Below are positions 6,576 to 38,319 of a stretch of 38,385 nucleotides of DNA, piece by piece. The notes below the pieces were generated by a model, which did not search any database, was not told the DNA's origin, and saw only the letters and a program-made list of their open reading frames with translations. This DNA comes from Balneolia bacterium. GTDB taxonomy: Bacteria; Bacteroidota; Rhodothermia; Balneolales; Cyclonatronaceae. The stretch spans positions 1-38,385 of the forward strand of contig PXCK01000079.1 of NCBI GenBank assembly GCA_003566635.1. The letters run 5' to 3'. Made by a program: the position numbers and the translations under genes. Positions within the stretch are counted from its first letter, which is position 1, and each line of letters opens with the position of its first letter.

Positions 6576-8270
6576 CTAGTTGTACCCTCTAACTTGAACT
6601 TCTCCGGGTGTGGACTGCTCGCTACTGGCATTATTTTCACCAAGACTAAACACAATCGGTATTGTCATCTGTACCGGTACCGCTCTGCCTCTTTGAACAC
6701 CGGATTCAAACGATACTGAAGAAATGGCTTCCAATGCAGCATCATCAAGACCGCCGCCTCCGGCGCTACGTACTACTTGTGGATCAATCACCTTGCCATT
6801 TTCATCAACAATAAATTGGATTATTGAGCGCCCTTCAATTCCTGCACGACGAGCAATCTCCGGGTATCTAAGGTGCGCATATAATGCCCGCATTCCTCCA
6901 ATCATTTCCGGCATTTGTTCAACCACCATAAACACTTCTGCATCTGACATTGGTGGAGTCGGCGGTGGCGGGGCAACCGGCGGTGGCGGGGCAACCATAA
7001 GTGCACCATTTTCATCAACGAGCCTGTTAATGTTTCCACTGTTTATTAATACCAACATGTTTTTTAAAGTGTCAACATGGTCTTTCATTGGATCAATCAT
7101 GTTCGATGGCAAGTTTTCAGCCTTCATTTCTGCAAGTTCAGCTTCAATTTTCTTGATATCAGTTTCTATAACGGTTTTAACTTCACCAATAGAAAGTGTT
7201 TGCCCGTTAAAAGTTACTTCAGTTATATCTGATGCGTTTACATTAGGATTTTGGGTTAAATCCGAACATGCCATCATTCCACCAATTAACACTAAAGTGG
7301 CAGTAGCAATTAGGATACTTTTTTTCATGGTTACTTCCTTTTCTTTTTGATTATTTATGAGTTGTAATGCTTTAATTCGTTTAATAAGGTTGTTTTCCTG
7401 AGCCATAGCCGCTTTAAAAACCGGCTTATCATTTGCTTTAATGGCAAATTCATAAAGTAATTGAGCGTAATCGGATGTATGTTCACGTTGGGATTCAAGT
7501 ACTGATCGATCGCAGGAAGCTTCGCGCCAGTAACCCGAATCGTTGTACAAAACATGAACCAGCGGATGCATCCAAAATGTGTGTCGTACAAAAAGTTCTA
7601 ATACATGAATGGCATAATCATAGCGGGAAACATGAATCAATTCGTGATTCAATATCATCCTCAACGATTCATTGGAGTTATTCTCGATTGAAGGGAGAAC
7701 AATTACAGGCTTTAATGTTCCTACAGTAAACGGAACCGATACATGTGAGCTTTGCTTTAAGACTACGCTGTTCGAAATTCCTTTTTCAGTGCGAATTTCA
7801 TCTAATAGTTTTAGTAAACCTGCTTCAGTTACTGTTTGAGCTTTTCTAATCACCCGACTCACTGGCCACAAAATGCTAAGAAAACGAGTCCAGCCTGCAA
7901 GAATGAGTAAACCGAGAACTCCGGTTAAAATCCAACCAAAAGATAAAGTACTCCCGCTGTTTACCTCAGTTACAGTTGGTTCGGCCACACCTTCCGCTCC
8001 AACAATAACAGCCGGAAGCTCAAAAACCGAGATTGCTGTAGTAAGAGCTTGTGCACTCCCGAAAATTGGAAAAGCCGGAAAGGCTATGAACAATGACGCA
8101 ACAATACCTAAAGGAAGGCTAAACAAAGCCGCAGCCGACAAATGATACTTTAAAAGCATACTCGAATTCCTGGAGTATCGAGTCCAAAGAACAACACCGG
8201 TTGCGATAAGCGTCCATGTTAATACGGCAAAAAGCAGACCCGGCAAATAAGGAATTAATGATTCTATCAT
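6576..8270 (-). CDS. M56 (BlaR1-like) membrane metallopeptidase with TonB-like C-terminal domain
   Basis: 564 residues. Membrane helices lie near residues 10-30, 45-70 and 110-135, followed by the cytosolic zinc protease with HELIH (209-213) and a likely third ligand Glu250 in 'GYWREASCD'. A fourth hydrophobic stretch (317-334) reads like a lipoprotein signal ending 'GGMMACS' (330-336). After a helical segment (about 362-415) and a proline run (428-440) comes a TonB-type domain (about 460-543; 'YPEIARRAGIEG'). Known BlaR1/MecR1 proteins sense a ligand outside and cleave the BlaI repressor inside. Here no penicillin-binding sensor domain is present, so the signal is unknown. It overlaps the blaI stop by 4 bp. 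An internal Met315 preceded by AAAGGAAG may allow a separate lipoprotein product. Confidence 0.85.
   Translation of the reverse strand: MIESLIPYLPGLLFAVLTWTLIATGVVLWTRYSRNSSMLLKYHLSAAALFSLPLGIVASLFIAFPAFPIFGSAQALTTAISVFELPAVIVGAEGVAEPTVTEVNSGSTLSFGWILTGVLGLLILAGWTRFLSILWPVSRVIRKAQTVTEAGLLKLLDEIRTEKGISNSVVLKQSSHVSVPFTVGTLKPVIVLPSIENNSNESLRMILNHELIHVSRYDYAIHVLELFVRHTFWMHPLVHVLYNDSGYWREASCDRSVLESQREHTSDYAQLLYEFAIKANDKPVFKAAMAQENNLIKRIKALQLINNQKEKEVTMKKSILIATATLVLIGGMMACSDLTQNPNVNASDITEVTFNGQTLSIGEVKTVIETDIKKIEAELAEMKAENLPSNMIDPMKDHVDTLKNMLVLINSGNINRLVDENGALMVAPPPPVAPPPPTPPMSDAEVFMVVEQMPEMIGGMRALYAHLRYPEIARRAGIEGRSIIQFIVDENGKVIDPQVVRSAGGGGLDDAALEAISSVSFESGVQRGRAVPVQMTIPIVFSLGENNASSEQSTPGEVQVRGYN
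6961..6996 (-). repeat. 18-bp tandem duplication encoding the proline run
   Basis: Two perfect copies of an 18-bp unit (6961-6978 and 6979-6996) encode successive Val-Ala-Pro-Pro-Pro-Pro blocks in the M56/TonB protein. The exact nucleotide identity suggests a recent in-frame duplication, and repeat-length variation between strains is plausible. Confidence 0.8.
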
Positions 8271-25642: not shown

Positions 25643-28600
25643 TTGAGCTCTGATTTCCTAAAATTTCTGTCAGGATTTATTTTAATTGCATTTTTTGCAA
25701 TTGTTTTATCCGATTCGGTTTTCGGTCAGGATTTTCGAATTGTATCCCAAACCTCTGAGTTTACGGATTATGAATTCCGAAATGATAGCCTTTTTGTACA
25801 AGCTCCTCTATTGCTTTCCGTGCCTGTAAGAGATGGTTCCCCCCGCTACACTATTTTGGAACAAGAGTTCGCTACCGTTTCGAATCCTGCCCTCCGTTCT
25901 TTTGGTAATACTGAAGATTACCTTGAATTAATCCAAAATACAGATACTCCATTTACAGTAGTAGGCGCTACTGTTGAAATTCGTAAACAATGGAAGAGTA
26001 CGGTAGCTTTTCATGTAGCCAGAAAAAGTATCAATAGCGAAGATTCTTATTTGATAAACAGAAAGTTGCGTGTTCGTGTATATAACGAACCAACATGGGT
26101 TTCCTCCTACAGTAATAATGATGCCGGTTTATTTGATACTCAAAATCACCCATTAACTTCCGGAACATGGTACAAAATCCCGATTTCTGAAAATGGGATT
26201 CACCGAATCGACGCAGCTTATTTAGAATCACTTGGTGTTAATGTAAGTTCTGTCGATCCTCGTAATATTCAAATTTGGGGTACAAATGGCTACGAATTGC
26301 CAAAGCCTAATGCAGAAGCTCGTCCTGAATGGTCAGAATTACCAATTATTGTACAAGGTGAAGGTAATGGGCAATTTAATTCTAATGACGCCATCCTGTT
26401 TTATGGAAATGATGCGAACAGAATAATTTTCAATTCTGTAACTCAGGATTGGGATCATGAAGTGCATAGTTATTCGAATAATAACTACGTTTTTTTAACC
26501 GTGGCCGATACTCCCGGTAGAAGGTTAAACACGGTATCTCTAACCAATCCCACTGAGGATATTACAACATTCAGAGATTTCATTTGGAAAGAAGAAGAAC
26601 TTTTTAAGCCTGAATCTCGATTACGATCAGGCACCCAATGGTTTGGACAACAGTTCACTCCTGAGTTTGCCAGTCAAACCATATTTGAAGAATCCATTCC
26701 CGGTTTTATTCAAGGAAGCTCTATAGAATTTCGTGCAAGAATGGGTGCAAGAGCTCGAACTAATACCGGATTTACGTTCACCTTTAACAACGAAAATATC
26801 GGCCAAATATCAATAACAGGTCTTTCCTCTTTGACGGGTGACACAGGACAGGCTGCTCGCTTTGGGAATATTGTTCGCCAGGTAAATAACGTTAACCTTA
26901 ATGACAATCAGCTGAGAATTAGCGCATTGCTTGGTTCAAACTCAGGTGACACACGTGGTTGGGTTGATTTCATCCAATTGCGTGTTAATCGAGCATTAGT
27001 AGCTGATAATGACAGGTTACACTTTCTTTCACCGGATGATATTACCGGTCAGGTTATAGCCCGTTATCGTATGTCTGGCTTTAGTAGCCCGCCAATTGTA
27101 ATGGATGTAACTAACCCTGTTGAACCTGTACAAATTGCTGTTCAAGAAAACGGCAATAACTGGGATGTAGTCTATCACGCTAATAATGGTCGTCAGTTCA
27201 TCGCACAGACTTCATTCATTACCCCGGAAGCAGGACAACAAGTAGCAAATCAAAACCTGACAGGAACTAACTTTTATCCTGACTACATCATTGTAACAGC
27301 CGAACCCTTTTTAGAAGCGGCAAATCAGTTAGCAGACTATCGTGCTCAAAGAAACAATTTGCGACCACTTGTGGTAACTCAAAATCAGATATTTAATGAA
27401 TTCTCCGGCGGTGTCCCTGATCCTGTTGCTATTCGTGATTTTATGCGCCACCTATATCTAAAAGCAGGTTTAGACGACGACTTATTGCCTAAATATTTGT
27501 TATTGTTTGGTGATACAACGTACGATTATAAAGGAATTGAATCAGCTCCACTAACCAATCACGTATTTACTTTTCAGCATTACATTGACAGTGACAACCT
27601 GATTCGTTCTGTAACATATGGCAGTGATGACTTTTTTACTTTTATGGGTGAAGATGAAGGTTCCTGGCTCATTTCTGACAGGAATAACCGACTTGATTTT
27701 GGTGTGGGTCGACTTCCGGTTCAAACCTTATCAGAAGCAAATTTAATGGTTGATAAAATCAAGACCTTCGAAAACCAGGATGTATCAGGTGATTGGCGTA
27801 CACTTTTTACGTTCACTGCAGACGATGCTATTAACGGTTCTTCAAACGACAGGGATTTACACACCTTCAATGCAGACTTTACCGCAGAACAAATAGACGA
27901 ACAAGAAACAGGAATTCGTGTTCGTAAAATCTATCAATTCAGTTATCCGGTAGAAACTACGCCTGCCGGTCAACGAGTTCCGGCTGCAACATCCGATTTT
28001 ATTTCAGCCATAAATAATGGTACGCTCACCATCCATTTTTCAGGTCATGGAAATGAGCAACAATTAACGGCTCAACGACTTTTCCAAAGCTCCGATATAC
28101 CAAGATTAAATAATAGCGAACGTCTCACCATACTCGTAACAGCTACCTGTTCATTTGGTCGTTTTGATGATAATAATGAGCAATCCGGAGCAGAAAAGTT
28201 AATGTTGCATCCTAATGGAGGCTCCGTTGCTACCTTTACAACAACGCGTGTTGTATATACCAGTTCAACGCCTACATCCGATAACAATTTTGGTCTGCAT
28301 ATTGAACTAACCCGCGAAATGATACGCCGTGACCAAAACGGACGCCCTCAAACGTTGGGTGATATTTACATGAATTCCAAAAACAACATTTTGGAAATCA
28401 GTACGGGTATTAATAACCGAAAATTTACGTTGCTTGGTGATCCGGCAATGACCATTGGGTTACCCGAAGCTAAGATTGAAATTACCGATGTAAATGGTAT
28501 TTCAGACTTAGAACAAACACCTCTCCAACTTCGTGCTTTAGACCGTGTGGTAATCAATGGGCACGTAAGTGATGGTAACGGCGGTGTAAATACTTCTTTT

Positions 28601-29584
28601 AATGGTGAAGCCTCCGTACGTGTATTTGATGCAAGAAGATTTGAATTATTACCACAACCCGATTTGTATTGTTTAAATATGCCGGGGTGTGGTTTCTTTG
28701 TTCGTAATGATGTTCTGTTTAACGGAAGAGTAAGTGTTGTGAACGGACGTTTTTCAAGTGAATTTATCGTTCCTAAAGACATTGCCTATTCATCAGATTT
28801 AGGAAAAATTCATGTTTATGCGAAAAACCCAAATACTATGGACGCTGTTGGAGCATTTAACAACTTTTTCCTAAATGGCACTAATGAAGATGCAGAGAAC
28901 ATTTTTTCAGGACCTGAACTCGATGTTTTTCTGAATGATGATACCTTTATGAATGGCTCGCTAGTGAATAATTCTCCAAATTTAATTGTAGATATTTTTA
29001 GTGAAGCAGGTATCAACACAACAGGTTCCGGTGTTGGACACGAATTAGTTGCTACCCTAACCAATGAAGATCAAGGTGGAAGCAGTAAAGATATCATTCT
29101 AAACAGTTTTTATTCCAGTGCATTAGATGATTTTACACGTGGTAGAATTGAGTATCCTCTCGACCGATTAGAAGATGGTACCTATTCCTTAACAGTGCGT
29201 GCATGGGATGTTTTTAATAATGTAGGTGAAGAAGTAATCTTCTTTGAGGTTTCCGGTGGTGATAACCTTACACTCCGTAATGTATATAATTACCCCAACC
29301 CAATGAATAACTTCACTCGTTTTGCCTTTGAGCATAACACACCCGTTGGCGAGTCTATGGATATTTTTATCCGTATATTTACGTTATCGGGTCGTCCGGT
29401 TGCACAGATTCGTGATAATCGAATTGCTACCGGAAATTTAGAGCTTATTGAATGGAATGGTAGAGACGATGATGGAAATCGTCTTGCTTCCGGCACATAT
29501 TTATACCATGTAAGAGTAAGAACCGATGGTGCCGCAGGGCGCCAAAATGTTGAAGAAATTGAACGTTTGGTTATTATTCGCTAG
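25643..29584 (+). CDS. porU: Type IX secretion system C25 sortase PorU
   Basis: 1313 residues. A signal peptide (1-29, ending 'DSVFGQ') precedes a long beta-rich N-terminal region (to about 540). The gingipain-like C25 protease domain (about 545-930) has His802 in 'HFSGHG' and Cys836 in 'VTATCSFG', 34 residues apart as in gingipains. The last 100 residues (from 'NYPNPMNNFTRF', 1216-1313) are a C-terminal domain of the T9SS/FlgD type. PorU cleaves the sorting domain from T9SS cargo and attaches it to surface glycolipid. An in-frame stop at 25616-25618 leaves TTG 25643 as the only usual start. porV follows after 32 bp, which supports the assignment. Confidence 0.92.
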   Translation: MSSDFLKFLSGFILIAFFAIVLSDSVFGQDFRIVSQTSEFTDYEFRNDSLFVQAPLLLSVPVRDGSPRYTILEQEFATVSNPALRSFGNTEDYLELIQNTDTPFTVVGATVEIRKQWKSTVAFHVARKSINSEDSYLINRKLRVRVYNEPTWVSSYSNNDAGLFDTQNHPLTSGTWYKIPISENGIHRIDAAYLESLGVNVSSVDPRNIQIWGTNGYELPKPNAEARPEWSELPIIVQGEGNGQFNSNDAILFYGNDANRIIFNSVTQDWDHEVHSYSNNNYVFLTVADTPGRRLNTVSLTNPTEDITTFRDFIWKEEELFKPESRLRSGTQWFGQQFTPEFASQTIFEESIPGFIQGSSIEFRARMGARARTNTGFTFTFNNENIGQISITGLSSLTGDTGQAARFGNIVRQVNNVNLNDNQLRISALLGSNSGDTRGWVDFIQLRVNRALVADNDRLHFLSPDDITGQVIARYRMSGFSSPPIVMDVTNPVEPVQIAVQENGNNWDVVYHANNGRQFIAQTSFITPEAGQQVANQNLTGTNFYPDYIIVTAEPFLEAANQLADYRAQRNNLRPLVVTQNQIFNEFSGGVPDPVAIRDFMRHLYLKAGLDDDLLPKYLLLFGDTTYDYKGIESAPLTNHVFTFQHYIDSDNLIRSVTYGSDDFFTFMGEDEGSWLISDRNNRLDFGVGRLPVQTLSEANLMVDKIKTFENQDVSGDWRTLFTFTADDAINGSSNDRDLHTFNADFTAEQIDEQETGIRVRKIYQFSYPVETTPAGQRVPAATSDFISAINNGTLTIHFSGHGNEQQLTAQRLFQSSDIPRLNNSERLTILVTATCSFGRFDDNNEQSGAEKLMLHPNGGSVATFTTTRVVYTSSTPTSDNNFGLHIELTREMIRRDQNGRPQTLGDIYMNSKNNILEISTGINNRKFTLLGDPAMTIGLPEAKIEITDVNGISDLEQTPLQLRALDRVVINGHVSDGNGGVNTSFNGEASVRVFDARRFELLPQPDLYCLNMPGCGFFVRNDVLFNGRVSVVNGRFSSEFIVPKDIAYSSDLGKIHVYAKNPNTMDAVGAFNNFFLNGTNEDAENIFSGPELDVFLNDDTFMNGSLVNNSPNLIVDIFSEAGINTTGSGVGHELVATLTNEDQGGSSKDIILNSFYSSALDDFTRGRIEYPLDRLEDGTYSLTVRAWDVFNNVGEEVIFFEVSGGDNLTLRNVYNYPNPMNNFTRFAFEHNTPVGESMDIFIRIFTLSGRPVAQIRDNRIATGNLELIEWNGRDDDGNRLASGTYLYHVRVRTDGAAGRQNVEEIERLVIIR

Positions 29585-29616: not shown

Positions 29617-30732
29617 ATGAAGCAGTTAACAAGATCTGCCTTGCTATTAGCCATTATTTTAGGTTTTAGCACTTTAACAGCACACGCACAGGTAGGTATC
29701 ACAGCGGTACCTTTCTTGCAAATTGAACCTGATTCCAGGGCTCCTGGTATGGGAAACACAGGAGTGGCAATTGCAGATAATGCATCTGCAGTTTTCTGGA
29801 ATCCTGCAGGACTGGCATTTCAGGATGGAACACAGATTTCATTTACTCATGCTAATTGGCTCCCAAACTTCAATACAGATTTATTCTACGATTATTTAGT
29901 TGGGCGTCACTATATTGACGGAATTGGTACTTTTGGCGCTCATATCACTTTTTTAAACCTCGGCGAACAAGTTCAAACTGATGAAACAGGTCGAGAGATT
30001 CGTACATTTAGCAGTTACGAAATTGCCTCCGGTATCAGTTATGGTTTTAAACTAAATGATAATTGGGCTTTAGGAACCGGACTTCGTTTTATTTATAGTC
30101 GCCTTGTTCCATCCGGAATTGACGTTGGTGGCCAAACAGCCAGAAACGGAACGAGCGTAGGCCTTGACTTAGCGGCTTTATATCGTTCAAATTATTTCGA
30201 CTCATTTGGGTTTAATTCAAGGTTTAGTGCGGGAATGAACCTCTCTAATATCGGACCTGCTGTACAATACACCGATAACCCTCAAAAAGATCCATTGCCA
30301 ACGCTTTTACGTTTAGGCATTGCGTATGAATTAGAGTTAGATAACGATGGTATTAACACCGTCACTTTAGCCTCAGACGTATCTAAAATTATGGCAAGAA
30401 ACGATACCACAGGTCGTGCTATGGGCGTAGTTGAGGCATTATTTAGCTCGTGGGATACCTATACTCGTTTTGATGGGCAGGATTTTGTAGATGTTCCTCT
30501 AGCAGAGCAATTTATGTACTCTGTTGGTTTGGAATACTGGTACGCAAGCCAATTTGCTATTCGTACCGGTTACTTCTACGAAGCACCTAATAATGGTGAC
30601 CGCCAGTTTATATCTTTTGGTGCAGGTCTGCGCTATAACATTTTTGGTGTAGATTTCAGTTATCTGTACACCATTAAAGAAGACTCGCCTCTGGCGAATA
30701 CAATTCGAATATCAGTACTTGTAGATTTCTGA
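29617..30732 (+). CDS. porV: Type IX secretion outer-membrane protein PorV
   Basis: 371 residues. Signal peptide ending 'TAHAQ' (residue 25), then 'FLQIEPDSRAPGMGNTGVAIADNASAVFWNPAGLAF' style sequence, which is characteristic of PorV/LptO, a FadL-like barrel with 'NPAGL' near its N-terminus. The rest is alternating barrel strands ending in 'RISVLVDF'. PorV binds cargo leaving the translocon and delivers it to the PorU sortase. Position directly after porU, as in several Bacteroidota, agrees with this. The ATG at 29617 gives a normal signal peptide. Confidence 0.92.
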   Translation: MKQLTRSALLLAIILGFSTLTAHAQVGITAVPFLQIEPDSRAPGMGNTGVAIADNASAVFWNPAGLAFQDGTQISFTHANWLPNFNTDLFYDYLVGRHYIDGIGTFGAHITFLNLGEQVQTDETGREIRTFSSYEIASGISYGFKLNDNWALGTGLRFIYSRLVPSGIDVGGQTARNGTSVGLDLAALYRSNYFDSFGFNSRFSAGMNLSNIGPAVQYTDNPQKDPLPTLLRLGIAYELELDNDGINTVTLASDVSKIMARNDTTGRAMGVVEALFSSWDTYTRFDGQDFVDVPLAEQFMYSVGLEYWYASQFAIRTGYFYEAPNNGDRQFISFGAGLRYNIFGVDFSYLYTIKEDSPLANTIRISVLVDF

Positions 30733-30773: not shown

Positions 30774-33700
30774 ATGAAATTCAATCTCAAATCGAGCAGG
30801 AAAATGGTTTTTCCGCCATTTTTCCTGCTCTTCTTTTTATCATTAAATCTATTTTCGGCACCATTTGTAAATCAGGCTATTGCCCAACAGTATAACCGCC
30901 CGGTTATTAGTGATGGCACGATTTATATCGTAGCGGTTATGGCTGAATTTGTACCTGATGACAACCGCTTCACTTCAGGGAATGGAACATTTGAGATTGA
31001 TTTTTTAGCGAATAACGATATAACCATTTCACCTCTCCCACACGATAAAGCTTATTTTGAAAGTCACCTACAGTTTGCCCAAAATTATTTTCAAGCGGCT
31101 TCTTTTGGGAAATTAGATATAGAATACATCGTACTACCGGAAATCATTCAATTGCCGAATGAAATGAAAGCCTATTCACCAACCGGACCTGACGACTCCG
31201 AAAATTTTAAACTTGGTAACCTGGCAAAAGATGTATGGACGCTTGTGGCAGAACAGAATTTTTCCGGTTTGGAGCACCTCCCGCAAGATCGTACCATGTT
31301 TATTATCTTCCATGCAGGTGTGGGGCGCGACATTGAACTTACCGGTACTACTTTAGATAAAACACCTCAGGATATTCCATCAGTATTTTTAACCCAAGAT
31401 GCAATCGGAAGGTTAATTGACGAACCAACATTTGATGGCTTTCCCATCACAGAAAACCTGCGTGTTACCAATACTGCTATTCTGCCACAAACCCAATCCC
31501 GCCGTGGCGAAGATGTTACCGGTGCTGAATTTGTACTTGAACTTTCCATCAACGGAATCTTAACTGCCAACATTGGAAGCTTCATTGGACTACCTGATTT
31601 GTTTAATACAGATAGCGGAGCATCGGGAATCGGTAGATTTGGCTTGATGGACGGTGCCGGTATTTTTTCTTATTTCGGTCTATTTCCACCTTTGCCCTCC
31701 GCTTGGGAGCGTTATTTTATGGGTTGGAGCACCCCTTTCGATATCGACTTAGATAGTGAAGAACCCATAGAATTAGAAGCCGTTTCTCAAAATGGGGCCT
31801 TTTCTCTTGCACGTCATTTTATATCATCTGATGAGTTTTTTCTTGTTGAAAACAGGCATCGTGATCCGCTTGATGAAGGCGTTACTTTAACGATTCGTAC
31901 ACCGGAAGGTACTATCGAAACGGTTACATTTGACAATACAGAAGATCGTTTTGATCCTTTTGATCAGCGTTTTTATGACGAAATATTACCGCCCGGCGTA
32001 TTAATTAACGTATCCAATTTCGACTGGAGTTTACCCGGTGGTCTTGATGCAGGCGAAGACGGTCAGGTTGGTACGGATGACGACCGAATATTAAACGGCG
32101 GAATGTTAATATGGCATATTGATGATGCCGTAATTCGATCCACTATCGATGATAATGCCATCAACAATAACCCTGACCGACCCGGCATTGCGCTTCAGGA
32201 AGCCGATGGTGCACAGGATATTGGTCGACCCGGAACTACAATTACTAACTTCGCTAATGGAGGCCCGTTTGATTTTTGGTGGTCGGGTAATGATTTTACC
32301 GTAATCACCCCGGGTGGAGGAAGAATTGTTTTATATAAAAATCGTTTTGGGGATGATACATTCCCTAACAATAGAAGCAATAGTGGTGGCAGAACTTATT
32401 TCGAGTTTTATGATTTTTCTGATAATATTGCCACATCAACCTTTTTTGCCCGAAGAGTTCTTTCTGAGGATATTAACCTAATCGCAGAACTTGATTTAGA
32501 TGGTAACTTCTTTACCGAAAGTAACGAATGGCCCCTTGCTATTTCTGCCCATAACTTCGGCGATGACACCATCGTTTTTGTTCAATCATCGGAGCATCTT
32601 TACACTATACCACTTGACGAGAATTCACAACCGGTTTCTGATTTCATTTCAGTTTTTGATGATGTCACTCCTCTTCAACATTTAGTTTTTGACAATACCT
32701 TATACCTCGCATTTTCCTTGTCAGGAGAAACAATTGTAGGTTCATATTCTCTGAATTACTCTGATTTCTCATGGACTGAGAGCTGGAACACAACCCTTCC
32801 TGAAAACACCCAAACAGGAATTATAAGTACACTTGGCATTGACTTTATTGACATTGATGGAACCCCATTCCGTTTAAATATACAAGATGGCGCATTAACT
32901 ACCGAATCAACGAATTACCAGACGAGTGGGATTATCGGCAATGCTCAGGTAATTATTCGTGATGATTTACTGGAATTTTTCCCATCGCAATTTTCTTTCG
33001 TGATTCCTGGAATTGAAAAAAGTAAAAAAAACTATGGTGGACTAACAGAAATTGAAGTTGATCAAGTAGCTGTACCTTTTTTACTAAGAGACCAATCATT
33101 GTCATTATTCCCTAATGATAGAGAAGTAGAAATTCAAAACGGTCGCTTAAGTTTGCCTGCTATTGTCGATTTCGATAATAATAATTATATGGATTTTCTA
33201 TTTACAGATTATTCCAATAATGAGTTGATAGGTAAAAACCGAAACGGTGGTGTTTTGTGGAACTTTCCGGTTTCAGCTATCGATGGAAAACAGTTTAACG
33301 GAACTCCTTTGATTGTTCAGGATACTATTGATGAAACGGAACGCATCATTTTTACCCCTGTAACCGATAGTTTATCATATACATTAGAAGCATTCGATTC
33401 CCGTTTGCGCTCTGTTGATGGCTATCCCTTATATCTTGGTTCACTTGGTGAATTTCCTATTGATGGGGTTCCTGTACAGCCGCTATTCTTTGATGGGCGA
33501 TTATTTACAGTCAGCCCTACTGGGGAATTTAGAATCTGGGAATTTGAAGACCCCGGTACAATTTTATGGAGTAATGCTTATGGTAATAGTGCCGGGAACA
33601 AAATTCTTGGGTTGAATTCAGGTCAAACCCCTGCCCTTCCAATGTTTTCCATCTTGAATAAAGATGAGACCTACAATTGGCCTAATCCTGCATCAACCGA

Positions 33701-33929
33701 AACTAATATTCGGTTTGAAACACAGGGCGAAGCCGAAATAGAAATTACCGTTTTGAATATGAGCGGCTCACGAATTTACCGGGAGTCAACAACCTCAAGA
33801 GGGTTTGGTCCTCAGGAAACATTAGTTAGTACAGCAGGCTGGCCAAACGGGGTTTATTACGCAAGAGTTCAGGCAACTCAAAATGGAAGCCGTGAAACCA
33901 AAGTGATAAAAATAGTAGTAATGCGATAG
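30774..33929 (+). CDS. M6-like metalloprotease homologue without zinc motif, T9SS cargo
   Basis: 1051 residues. Signal peptide (1-38, ending 'AIAQQ'). Residues about 45-330 follow the layout of M6 (immune inhibitor A-like) proteases, including 'LPDLFNTDSGASGIGRFGLMDGAG' after the active site. At the place of HExxHxxGLPD the protein reads 'ANIGSFIGLPD' (265-275), so both zinc histidines and the catalytic glutamate are replaced by Ala, Ser and Asn. It is therefore probably inactive as a protease. The middle is a large beta-rich region; residues 968-1051 ('NWPNPASTETNIRF' to the end) are a T9SS type-A sorting domain. It should be exported to the surface by the neighbouring PorUV. The reading frame is intact and long, so it is not a decayed gene. 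Confidence 0.83.
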   Translation: MKFNLKSSRKMVFPPFFLLFFLSLNLFSAPFVNQAIAQQYNRPVISDGTIYIVAVMAEFVPDDNRFTSGNGTFEIDFLANNDITISPLPHDKAYFESHLQFAQNYFQAASFGKLDIEYIVLPEIIQLPNEMKAYSPTGPDDSENFKLGNLAKDVWTLVAEQNFSGLEHLPQDRTMFIIFHAGVGRDIELTGTTLDKTPQDIPSVFLTQDAIGRLIDEPTFDGFPITENLRVTNTAILPQTQSRRGEDVTGAEFVLELSINGILTANIGSFIGLPDLFNTDSGASGIGRFGLMDGAGIFSYFGLFPPLPSAWERYFMGWSTPFDIDLDSEEPIELEAVSQNGAFSLARHFISSDEFFLVENRHRDPLDEGVTLTIRTPEGTIETVTFDNTEDRFDPFDQRFYDEILPPGVLINVSNFDWSLPGGLDAGEDGQVGTDDDRILNGGMLIWHIDDAVIRSTIDDNAINNNPDRPGIALQEADGAQDIGRPGTTITNFANGGPFDFWWSGNDFTVITPGGGRIVLYKNRFGDDTFPNNRSNSGGRTYFEFYDFSDNIATSTFFARRVLSEDINLIAELDLDGNFFTESNEWPLAISAHNFGDDTIVFVQSSEHLYTIPLDENSQPVSDFISVFDDVTPLQHLVFDNTLYLAFSLSGETIVGSYSLNYSDFSWTESWNTTLPENTQTGIISTLGIDFIDIDGTPFRLNIQDGALTTESTNYQTSGIIGNAQVIIRDDLLEFFPSQFSFVIPGIEKSKKNYGGLTEIEVDQVAVPFLLRDQSLSLFPNDREVEIQNGRLSLPAIVDFDNNNYMDFLFTDYSNNELIGKNRNGGVLWNFPVSAIDGKQFNGTPLIVQDTIDETERIIFTPVTDSLSYTLEAFDSRLRSVDGYPLYLGSLGEFPIDGVPVQPLFFDGRLFTVSPTGEFRIWEFEDPGTILWSNAYGNSAGNKILGLNSGQTPALPMFSILNKDETYNWPNPASTETNIRFETQGEAEIEITVLNMSGSRIYRESTTSRGFGPQETLVSTAGWPNGVYYARVQATQNGSRETKVIKIVVMR

Positions 33930-33936
33930 GTTGTAT

Positions 33937-36900
33937 ATGCGTAATCAAATAACATTTTATTTAGCAGCGCTGTTTATTTCGCTTGGTGTGGCTTTTCAGG
34001 CCTCGGCTCAGCAAAATCCGGCCTTCTTTTCTTTTCCTCAAAATCACTTGGATTGGTACACCGTTGAAAGCGAGCATTTCTTGATTCATTTCCAGGAAGG
34101 CAACGACCGACCTGCTCAAGTCATTTCCGTAATTGCTGAAGAAGTTTGGGATGAAATCACCACGTTTTACGAATTCACTCCTGATATTCAAATCAGTATC
34201 ATCCTCATTGACCGTCTGGATTATGCCAATGGTGCAGCTTTCTTTTTTGATAACAAAATTGAAATATGGCTTCCTGCACTACACACTTCCTTGAGAGGGA
34301 CAAACGATTGGCTTCGAAACGTAATTACGCACGAATTTGCTCATATCGTACAAATTCAGGCTTCTATGAGTGGAAGCCGTCGTTGGCCCGTATCATACCT
34401 ACAGTGGCTTTCATACGAAGATGTACGACGCCCTGACGTACTTTACGGATACCCATCGGGTGTAATTAGTTATCCGTTCTCCATTGCCAGCGTGCCTGCA
34501 TGGTTTGCAGAGGGAACCGCTCAATACATGACCGGAAGCCTGCATTACGATTATTGGGATACTCATAACGATATGTTTTTACGAACCCGCATTCTCGATA
34601 ACAAAGAACTCGGTCTGGTTGAAATGGGTCATTTCGCTTCAAAAACCAGCATGGAGCGGGAACAAGCTTACAATCAGGGGTTTTCATTTACAACCTACCT
34701 TGCCAATCGTTTCGGGGAAGATTCCATTCGTGAAATTACTGTCGGATTGAAGCGTACGAGTGACATAAGGCGTTCAATTCGTCGTGTAACCGGCATCGAT
34801 GGCGAGCAAGTTTACCAAGATTGGGTTGACAGCCTCAGAACAAACTATCGGGACTTTACTGAGAATATTCGACCATTTGAGGCACAACCTGTAAACGAAC
34901 TCGGCTTCTTTAACTTTAATCCGGTTTTTACTCCTGACGGTAAAATTGCGTACCTCAGCAATTCGTTTTTTGATGGCGCCCGACTTCAGTTGTTTCTACA
35001 AGATGAGCCTTCATCAAATAAAACTTCTTTAATCAATCTTAGAGATTCGCATGCACCAATTACCGGAGGGTTTCAACATAGTTGCGGGATGTATGCTGAG
35101 CCGGTCATCAACCGAATAGAATCAGGCTTTAGCTTTTCACCTGATGGAAATTTGATAGCCTATAACCGCACGCGTTTAAACAGGTTTGGGGAAACTTACA
35201 ACGATCTTTATGTATTCAATCGCGAAACCGAAGATACCGAACGTCTTTCGTTTAGTGCGCGCCTAACAGAACCTGCATGGAGTCCGGACGGTGATAAATT
35301 AGCTGCGCTCCAACAAACCGACGGGACCCTAAATTTAGTTCTGGTAAATCCAGAAAACGGTGACATATCGCCATTAACTTCATTTACACAAGGTGAACAA
35401 CTTTTAAAGCCCGTTTGGTCACCCGATGGGAATTTCATCTATGCCGCTAAAGCCGAGCGAAAAGGACGAAAAATTGTCCGGATTGATGTTAACGCTACAC
35501 ATTCTATTGATACTGTTCTCCGGTTTGATGACACCGATATTCGCGATCCGTTTTTGACCAATGATGGTGCATGGATGTATTTTTCGGCTGATTTTGGCGG
35601 TAAATTTGATGTTTATCGGCTGAATCTTGAGACAGAAGAAATCGAGAAACTAACCGATGTTATTGGCGGTGCATTTATGCCGTTTGTTTCGGATGATGGC
35701 GTCTTGCTGTATTCCGAGTTCACTTCCGACGGATACAAAATTCGTAAAGCACCAATTCATGAACTGAAACAACACCAACTTGATAACCAACGATTGGCCG
35801 TTACCGAAGTAATTCCATCACCCCGACCAAACGAAAGTTTGAATCCTCTCAATCAATTTGATGATGCTTCGATTTTATCCTTTGATCCGTCAAGATACGC
35901 TATAGCCGATACATCTATTTACGAGTTTACACTTACTACAAGAGGTCAGTCTGATTTCAGGCAGTTTTACTCCTATCAGGATACCTTTCTTGATTTCAGT
36001 TTTTATCCGGTAATTCGTTTCGATAATTACTCCAAAGAGTTCGGTAGTAATCGGGAATTGATGAAAGCCGGCCGAATCGGAGATATCGGTCGAAATATCG
36101 GTCGTGATATGAAAGTGGGCTTTTATATGAGTTCTCGTGAAGTTCTTGAACGATTTAACATCTTTGGAGGATTATTGGTAGCCCCTGCTTCTCTCGATGC
36201 CGGAAACCTGAGCGAGTTTATGCGTCCTGCAAGGCTCATAGATCTGGACCGTGACCTATTTTTTATTGCAGAGTACACGGGCTTGCCATTCATTGAAAGG
36301 CATTGGTCTCCTACAATTCAGGTAGCCTTGTACAACCTCCGCAGAAACGTTAGCAATGGGCTGGAAATTGAAGATTTTTCTTGTACAGCCTGTTTACCCG
36401 ATACACTTTCGGTAAATATTGCATACGATATTTGGCAGGCAGAGGTAAATCTCATCAGCAAGTTAAATAACTTTAGTTTGCTAGAACTTGGGTATCAGTA
36501 TACTCCTTACAGAGTTTCAACATCTTCATTTTTCTCTCGTGAATTTGATCAATTTGTTCCGGGTTCTACCCAACGATATTTTATTGGTTCTGCCCTATCT
36601 GCTACATATAACGTTGATTTTCAAATGCCATACCGTCATGGAGATATTGCCCCGGTTGGGGTTAGAGGACACGTAAGATACAGTTATTCTCCCGGCCGAC
36701 TTTTAGACTCCTTCGAGATACGTGACGGTACACTCATACCTATTTACGAGAATTTCCAAAACCATTCCCTTGAGTTAGACTCGAGGATAGGATTTCCACT
36801 ATTCGGACCAAATGTTTTCCAATTACGAACACGCTTTTTTACCTATTTCAATAATCCCGATGAATTCTTTTTTCTTGATTATATAGGTGGCTTCGATGGC

Positions 36901-37296
36901 ATGCGCAGCTATCCGTTTTTTTCTCTTGGAGGCGAAACTACGGCTTTTGGTACGTTATCATACTATCAACCAATTCTCACGAATATTAACCGCCAATCAG
37001 GTCGTTTAATCCTCGATAAAATTTTTGCCCGCTTCTTCTTTGAAGCAGGTAATGGGTGGGGCGGCCCGCTTGGAATTGGTGACGATATCAAAACAGGTAT
37101 TGGTGCCGAATTAAGGATAAACTTACTTACAAGTTACCTCTTTCCTACACGTTTCTTTGTTAGTGGAGCCTATGGCTTAAACCGTTTTGACCTTAACATT
37201 CCTGAAGGATTTGTTTCGGCAGCGGGACGCGAAAGCGTTTCTTTTGGTCGTGAAGTTCTAATCAATTTTGGAGTTTTATTCGATTTTGAATTTTAA
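33937..37296 (+). CDS. Gluzincin-like peptidase fused to beta-propeller and outer-membrane barrel
   Basis: 1119 residues from ATG 33937; an in-frame TTG two codons earlier is possible, but ATG gives a normal signal peptide (1-25, ending 'QASAQ'). A peptidase-MA-like domain has HEFAH at 132-136 and a likely third ligand Glu192 in 'WFAEGTAQYM'. Then come TolB/WD40-like propeller repeats (about 310-600; 'SFSPDGNLIAY', 'AWSPDGDKLAAL', 'VWSPDGNFIYAA') and a C-terminal barrel ending '...FGVLFDFEF'. It is likely an outer-membrane protein with a periplasmic or surface protease and propeller. It begins 7 bp after the M6-like gene. Substrate unknown. Confidence 0.85.
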   Translation: MRNQITFYLAALFISLGVAFQASAQQNPAFFSFPQNHLDWYTVESEHFLIHFQEGNDRPAQVISVIAEEVWDEITTFYEFTPDIQISIILIDRLDYANGAAFFFDNKIEIWLPALHTSLRGTNDWLRNVITHEFAHIVQIQASMSGSRRWPVSYLQWLSYEDVRRPDVLYGYPSGVISYPFSIASVPAWFAEGTAQYMTGSLHYDYWDTHNDMFLRTRILDNKELGLVEMGHFASKTSMEREQAYNQGFSFTTYLANRFGEDSIREITVGLKRTSDIRRSIRRVTGIDGEQVYQDWVDSLRTNYRDFTENIRPFEAQPVNELGFFNFNPVFTPDGKIAYLSNSFFDGARLQLFLQDEPSSNKTSLINLRDSHAPITGGFQHSCGMYAEPVINRIESGFSFSPDGNLIAYNRTRLNRFGETYNDLYVFNRETEDTERLSFSARLTEPAWSPDGDKLAALQQTDGTLNLVLVNPENGDISPLTSFTQGEQLLKPVWSPDGNFIYAAKAERKGRKIVRIDVNATHSIDTVLRFDDTDIRDPFLTNDGAWMYFSADFGGKFDVYRLNLETEEIEKLTDVIGGAFMPFVSDDGVLLYSEFTSDGYKIRKAPIHELKQHQLDNQRLAVTEVIPSPRPNESLNPLNQFDDASILSFDPSRYAIADTSIYEFTLTTRGQSDFRQFYSYQDTFLDFSFYPVIRFDNYSKEFGSNRELMKAGRIGDIGRNIGRDMKVGFYMSSREVLERFNIFGGLLVAPASLDAGNLSEFMRPARLIDLDRDLFFIAEYTGLPFIERHWSPTIQVALYNLRRNVSNGLEIEDFSCTACLPDTLSVNIAYDIWQAEVNLISKLNNFSLLELGYQYTPYRVSTSSFFSREFDQFVPGSTQRYFIGSALSATYNVDFQMPYRHGDIAPVGVRGHVRYSYSPGRLLDSFEIRDGTLIPIYENFQNHSLELDSRIGFPLFGPNVFQLRTRFFTYFNNPDEFFFLDYIGGFDGMRSYPFFSLGGETTAFGTLSYYQPILTNINRQSGRLILDKIFARFFFEAGNGWGGPLGIGDDIKTGIGAELRINLLTSYLFPTRFFVSGAYGLNRFDLNIPEGFVSAAGRESVSFGREVLINFGVLFDFEF

Positions 37297-37374: not shown

Positions 37375-38319
37375 ATGCGATACTTTTTGTTTTTGTTGAT
37401 GGTGACTGTTGGTCTGGCATTGGCTGAATCAAGCCATGCACAATTATGGTCGGATGTAGAAGAAATTGATCAGATTTCCATACAGGATTTCCGATATAAC
37501 TCATCTTCATCAACTTTTGGGATGGTGAACACATCAACAGATGGCTCATCAGGATTTTTAGGTACTATAGCTGAACGTCCCGGTTTGGCCTTGTTATCAT
37601 CTGCTATTATACCCGGTTTGGGACAAGCGGCTAACGGACAGTGGTGGAAAACAGCAATTTTTGCCGGAATAGAAATTGGCGCGATTGCTCTTATGATTGA
37701 AAGAAGGAATCATGCCCAAAAAGTTGAGCGTCAGTACAATCAAATGGCCGACGAAAACTGGAGCGTGGTACAATACACCCAATTCCTTATCGAATATTCC
37801 AACCTTGATTTAAGAATTGAGGACTTTTTAACACCTGAGGGTATGGAGCGATTTTTGAATGATGGCTTTATTAACCCGGCTTTTAACAATGATATAGATT
37901 GGGCTACGATTAACCTTTCAGCTTTAAATGAAGCCGAAGCTGCTACAATTTACCGTTCAACCGGCATGTTTTTCTCCCATGTTGTTCCCGCTTACGGTTC
38001 ACAACAATATTATGAGTTGGTAAGTAAGTATTTTCAATACGGCCCGGGTTGGATAGACTGGAATGGAGATATATCCATAGTTGATGGTGGCATTGAAGAT
38101 ATGTCGGAAATGTGGAGAGAACACGCACGAATTGAATCGGAATTCAATGAAGCCTATCGTTTTTCAAATAATATGATAATGGTTTTATTGGTAAATCACG
38201 TTTTTTCCGCATTCGATGCGTTTATTACTTCACGCCTTCGTTTACACAGAAATGCTATTCAATCAGAAGCAATTTTGCATGGTTCGGGTTTAGGTTTTAA
38301 CTTAAAGGTTGGATTCTAA
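37375..38319 (+). CDS. DUF5683-like membrane protein
   Basis: 314 residues. Signal peptide (1-23, ending 'SSHAQ'), then 'LALLSSAIIPGLGQAANGQWWKTAIFAGIEIGAIAL' (about 71-106), the core of DUF5683-type proteins: a proline-glycine turn and a hydrophobic hairpin. A second hydrophobic stretch near the end ('MIMVLLVNHVFSAFDAFIT', about 260-278) completes the pattern. The middle (120-255) is a soluble, acidic helical insertion. The molecular role of the family is not known to me. It lies 78 bp behind the peptidase-propeller-barrel gene on the same strand and may belong to the same operon. Confidence 0.75.
   Translation: MRYFLFLLMVTVGLALAESSHAQLWSDVEEIDQISIQDFRYNSSSSTFGMVNTSTDGSSGFLGTIAERPGLALLSSAIIPGLGQAANGQWWKTAIFAGIEIGAIALMIERRNHAQKVERQYNQMADENWSVVQYTQFLIEYSNLDLRIEDFLTPEGMERFLNDGFINPAFNNDIDWATINLSALNEAEAATIYRSTGMFFSHVVPAYGSQQYYELVSKYFQYGPGWIDWNGDISIVDGGIEDMSEMWREHARIESEFNEAYRFSNNMIMVLLVNHVFSAFDAFITSRLRLHRNAIQSEAILHGSGLGFNLKVGF

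Follow-up and report, generated by a model that had tools for sequence, protein, structure and literature searches.

A conserved M6-like pseudoprotease of the T9SS cargo type, encoded between PorV and a zinc peptidase in Balneolia

PorZ, a protein of the T9SS attachment complex, has an architecture that includes a second propeller. Regarding surface attachment in P. gingivalis, PorV holds proteins with type-A C-terminal sorting domains (CTDs) at the surface (PMC5562754; type-A CTDs and PorV also in PMC12618676), PorU and PorZ are CTD proteins anchored via PorV and PorQ, and porU mutants build up PorV-bound substrates (PMC5562754). The M6 peptidases, represented by immune inhibitor A2 (PDB 4yu5 and 4yu6) and the domain profile TIGR03296, are metalloproteases with an HExxH motif, and the NCBIfam model NF052323 (T9SSA_dep_M6i) names a T9SS-dependent M6-like inactivated metalloprotease, hereafter M6i; the name carries no mechanism, and a literature search of limited extent found no paper describing the family. 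Elsewhere, active proteases are served by inactive homologues, as in the iRhom-ADAM17 pseudoprotease/protease pair discussed in PMC7916773.

The window, that is, the whole stretch of 38,385 nucleotides from a Balneolia bacterium (contig PXCK01000079.1) that was analysed, encodes an M6i directly behind porU and porV, the position reported in the initial annotation, followed by a zinc peptidase, here called MA2, and a DUF5683 protein:

25643..29584, + strand: PorU sortase (C25), a neighbour in many, not all, loci (NF033707, 1026 bits)
29617..30732, + strand: PorV, T9SS outer-membrane shuttle and 5' neighbour of M6i (NF033710, 275 bits; cut-off 250)
30774..33929, + strand: M6i ORF, ATG start, 1051 aa (NF052323, 1081 bits)
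30774..30887, + strand: N-terminal signal peptide region of M6i, residues 1-38, read from sequence; low-confidence and poorly conserved
30909..31763, + strand: M6-like core domain of M6i, residues 46-330, immune inhibitor A fold (domain model pLDDT 92; 4yu6, E 2.6e-16)
31545..31727, + strand: former active-site region of M6i, residues 258-318 (A265, N266, S269; GLPDLF; GRFGLMDG), its best-conserved part
31764..32453, + strand: residues 331-560 of M6i, beta-rich and accessory to the core within the M6-like half, with ENR and WHID motifs
32454..33638, + strand: beta-propeller of M6i, residues ~561-955, sequence-variable, nearest solved folds BamB
33666..33926, + strand: T9SS type-A C-terminal sorting domain of M6i, residues 965-1051
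33931..37296, + strand: MA2, found together with M6i; it has a signal peptide, a zinc peptidase of the MA superfamily (HEFAH at residue 134, PAWFAEG), a TolB-like propeller and probably an outer-membrane barrel at its C-terminus
34330..34344, + strand: HEFAH zinc motif of MA2
37375..38319, + strand: DUF5683 protein, with which the conserved cluster ends

The reading frame of M6i is intact, and NF052323 matches it full-length (profile positions 8-1043 of 1043; curated cut-off 600 bits) with an identical architecture and no difference found. The protein type is not new as a kind, because NCBIfam NF052323 already names a T9SS-dependent M6-like inactivated metalloprotease, and the description in the initial annotation is correct for this protein, whose zinc-binding and catalytic residues are gone. 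Residues A265, N266 and S269 stand at the positions of H, E and H in HExxH, and GLPDLF (272-277) and GRFGLMDG (287-294) are in place, exactly as first claimed. Structure prediction gave a full-length model with pLDDT 90 and pTM 0.87; when the N-terminal half was modelled by itself (pLDDT 92), its best Foldseek match was the Bacillus immune inhibitor A2 (InhA2) zymogen 4yu6 (probability 1.00, E 2.6e-16), the M6 peptidases 4yu5 and 4yu6 being the top fold matches. The N-terminal half has an M6 fold, and among solved structures this relationship came out of the fold search only; a sequence search of them with M6i as query returned no M6 relative. M6i shares with the M6 peptidases the GLPDL and LM/AW motifs as well as this fold, but lacks HExxH, has an added propeller and T9SS tail, and scores under the curated cut-off of TIGR03296, although this profile match (3e-13 over residues 271-369) supports a genuine M6 relationship; relative to the active metallopeptidases of MEROPS family M6 it has the fold without the motif. 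Model-based fold comparison places a propeller in the variable middle (about 561-955), with BamB as the nearest fold. The C-terminus matches Pfam PF18962 (2e-8, residues 969-1044) and TIGR04183 (2.6e-8), and the N-terminus is signal-like; judged from this sequence evidence, M6i is probably T9SS cargo of type A, in agreement with the initial annotation.

M6i is found well beyond this genome. NF052323 was detected in 60/60 near relatives, with a tail-only match in a few genomes, and above its cut-off in 90 of the 248 genomes of a phylum sample. None of the 66 distinct homologues inspected has HExxH, the most divergent group (f17) included; the first-His position is almost always Ala, the catalytic Glu position is N, S, T or Q, and the second-His position is mostly Ser or Asn. 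Residues 258-318 form the most conserved stretch of the protein (mean majority-residue fraction 0.81, compared with 0.33 in the propeller), and no HExxH-bearing M6 was found at the corresponding place in PorU-PorV loci without M6i. Local decay of this one copy is ruled out, since all 66 homologues lack HExxH and 258-318 is conserved most. By sequence comparison, M6i belongs to a secreted pseudoprotease family that is both old and conserved and in which catalysis was lost long ago under selection, which bears out the earlier suggestion that the loss was selected and not a decay.

Regarding the gene neighbourhood, counts were made over 80 named Balneolia loci, with testable cases as denominators. 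PorV lies immediately 5' of M6i in 73/73 loci, MA2 3' of it in 71/71, and DUF5683 belongs to the cluster in 57/57, whereas PorU stands beside PorV-M6i in only 41/61. Of the porU-porV-M6 order that was to be checked, the PorV-M6i part therefore holds throughout and the adjacency of PorU does not; seven changes of PorU adjacency are needed on the tree, some of which, in f36, are relocations, not losses. One locus (L084, 10681-12144) has a 488-codon opposite-strand ORF that overlaps PorV and masks it in a longest-ORF listing, and PorV is present there.

MA2 begins 1 nt from the stop of M6i. With orthologues called at E below 1e-50, MA2 was present in 18/18 M6i-containing genomes and 0/10 genomes without M6i, seven of the latter having PorU; the chance of this pattern is 8e-8 with shared ancestry ignored, and as the 28 genomes are not independent the true value is weaker. 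The two genes lie apart in 7 of the 18 genomes (G128, G165, G172 and G176 of f36, G064 and G135 of f20, and G072 of f7). HExxH is retained in 97/97 full-length MA2 copies and a downstream PAWFAEG-type motif is found in all sampled rows, so that MA2 has the conserved HExxH and downstream Glu motif of an active MA-clan peptidase. Its C-terminus carries a terminal aromatic-rich strand motif, and a Pfam search for a barrel gave no match. Neither NCBIfam nor Pfam has a model dedicated to the full architecture of MA2 (MA peptidase, TolB-like propeller, probable barrel), despite its conservation across many families.

A deletion fossil is present between PorV and DUF5683 in the Fodinibius relative G055 (L172, 9710-10232), where a single contiguous deletion spared ~70 residues at the N-terminus of M6i and ~115 at the C-terminus of MA2; this joint removal is one event that needs no functional link and does not prove coupling independently. 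Correlating gene-tree distances failed to tell the candidate partners of M6i apart, and the outcome changed with the control used. Judged by co-occurrence, MA2 appears to be the best-matching partner of M6i.

The most likely reading, though a tentative one, is that PorV delivers M6i to the surface, where it acts as a pseudoprotease subunit of MA2. The SprA translocon would export M6i and pass it to PorV, and M6i would stay at the cell surface as a non-catalytic subunit that uses the conserved cleft of its former active site to bind, and not cut, a peptide or protein, recruiting or regulating substrates for MA2, the putative intact outer-membrane metallopeptidase; PorU would not be needed by M6i for serving MA2. 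Export and holding by PorV, suggested by the tail and by synteny, are probable because PorV acts in this way on type-A CTD proteins in P. gingivalis, and co-occurrence suggests that the cleft most likely serves MA2. The proposed pair would resemble iRhom-ADAM17 (PMC7916773) in that an inactive homologue is proposed to serve an active metalloprotease; the two pairs share no homology and the likeness is one of analogy. Against the pairing, the N-terminal peptidase of MA2 could be periplasmic, across the membrane from exported M6i, and PorV without M6i is common.

The constancy of PorV could also be taken to mean that M6i works as a cofactor dedicated to PorV, residing at the surface bound to it and aiding the loading or release of type-A cargo, with MA2 coupled only via the operon. 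No neighbour is more constant than PorV, which stays beside M6i after PorU loss and also in three f36 genomes where MA2 is unlinked. However, PorV occurs without M6i in the Fodinibius genomes G055 and G258 and in many PorU-containing genomes, and MA2 is present with M6i even when unlinked, which leaves this a somewhat unlikely account.

M6i could also be ordinary surface cargo, an adhesin or a glycan or peptide binder, with no part in secretion or in the function of MA2, as it has a propeller fold and its type-A CTD is a normal one, of a kind carried by about 70 further proteins encoded in this genome. This is unlikely for a single-copy gene kept in a fixed position over many families, with its conservation centred on the former active site.

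The initial annotation had proposed M6i as a cluster-specific partner of the sortase. On that view M6i would join the PorU-PorV attachment complex as an accessory subunit; a related idea is that it stands in for PorZ. The order PorU-PorV-M6i is kept across many families, distant ones included, and PorV and PorQ hold PorU and PorZ, which also have CTDs (PMC5562754). M6i is nevertheless missing from many PorU-containing genomes and is present in seven genomes (G028, G036, G044, G047, G058, G235 and G266; L069-L075), comprising Rhodohalobacter, a Fodinibius relative and G028, in which PorU, PorZ, PorU2 and any C25 peptidase are absent. PorV-M6i-MA2 is retained in these lineages after PorU loss, as are SprA, PorV (read from synteny) and CTD cargo, with 7-31 CTD proteins vs 61-73 in three PorU-containing genomes and 12 in one PorU-containing genome without PorZ; the gap at the PorU site, 189-444 bp in five PorU-less loci, holds no PorU remnant. 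M6i therefore does not follow PorU in occurrence as a component of the attachment complex would, the constant neighbours being PorV and MA2, and the sortase-partner proposal has become decidedly unlikely.

PorZ (PDB 5m11) resembles M6i in being a surface protein that contains a propeller and retains its CTD, although the CTD similarity is distant and M6i has the M6 half in place of the second propeller; replacement of PorZ by M6i is ruled out, as true PorZ is found together with M6i both in the genome of the window and in most other genomes. PorU2/PorV2 (NF052324/NF052325, adjoining model numbers) were likewise rejected as partners, both being absent from the PorU-less genomes with M6i.

It is very improbable that T9SS cargo is released without a sortase in the lineages lacking PorU and C25 peptidases, with PorV-M6i-MA2 handling PorV-bound cargo such that MA2 cuts what the pseudo-M6 presents to it, the CTD or the cargo. 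That M6i remains an enzyme, through another metal site or another chemistry drawing on the metal- or acid/base-capable H180, D200, D275, E359, H448 and E476 that are invariant or nearly so in its M6-like half, is just as improbable, the zinc-helix positions being A, N/S/T/Q and S/N across the family.

Reading M6i as a subunit of MA2 supplies a partner that can be tested for a T9SS pseudoprotease that had a name and no explanation, and sets this protein apart from the sortase. Halophilic Balneolota (Rhodohalobacter, Fodinibius) with the T9SS translocon, PorV and CTD cargo and no PorU offer a natural test of the role of PorV and M6i without the sortase. Elsewhere in the window, positions 6576-8270 on the - strand encode a fusion of an M56 BlaR1-type peptidase with a TonB C-terminal domain.
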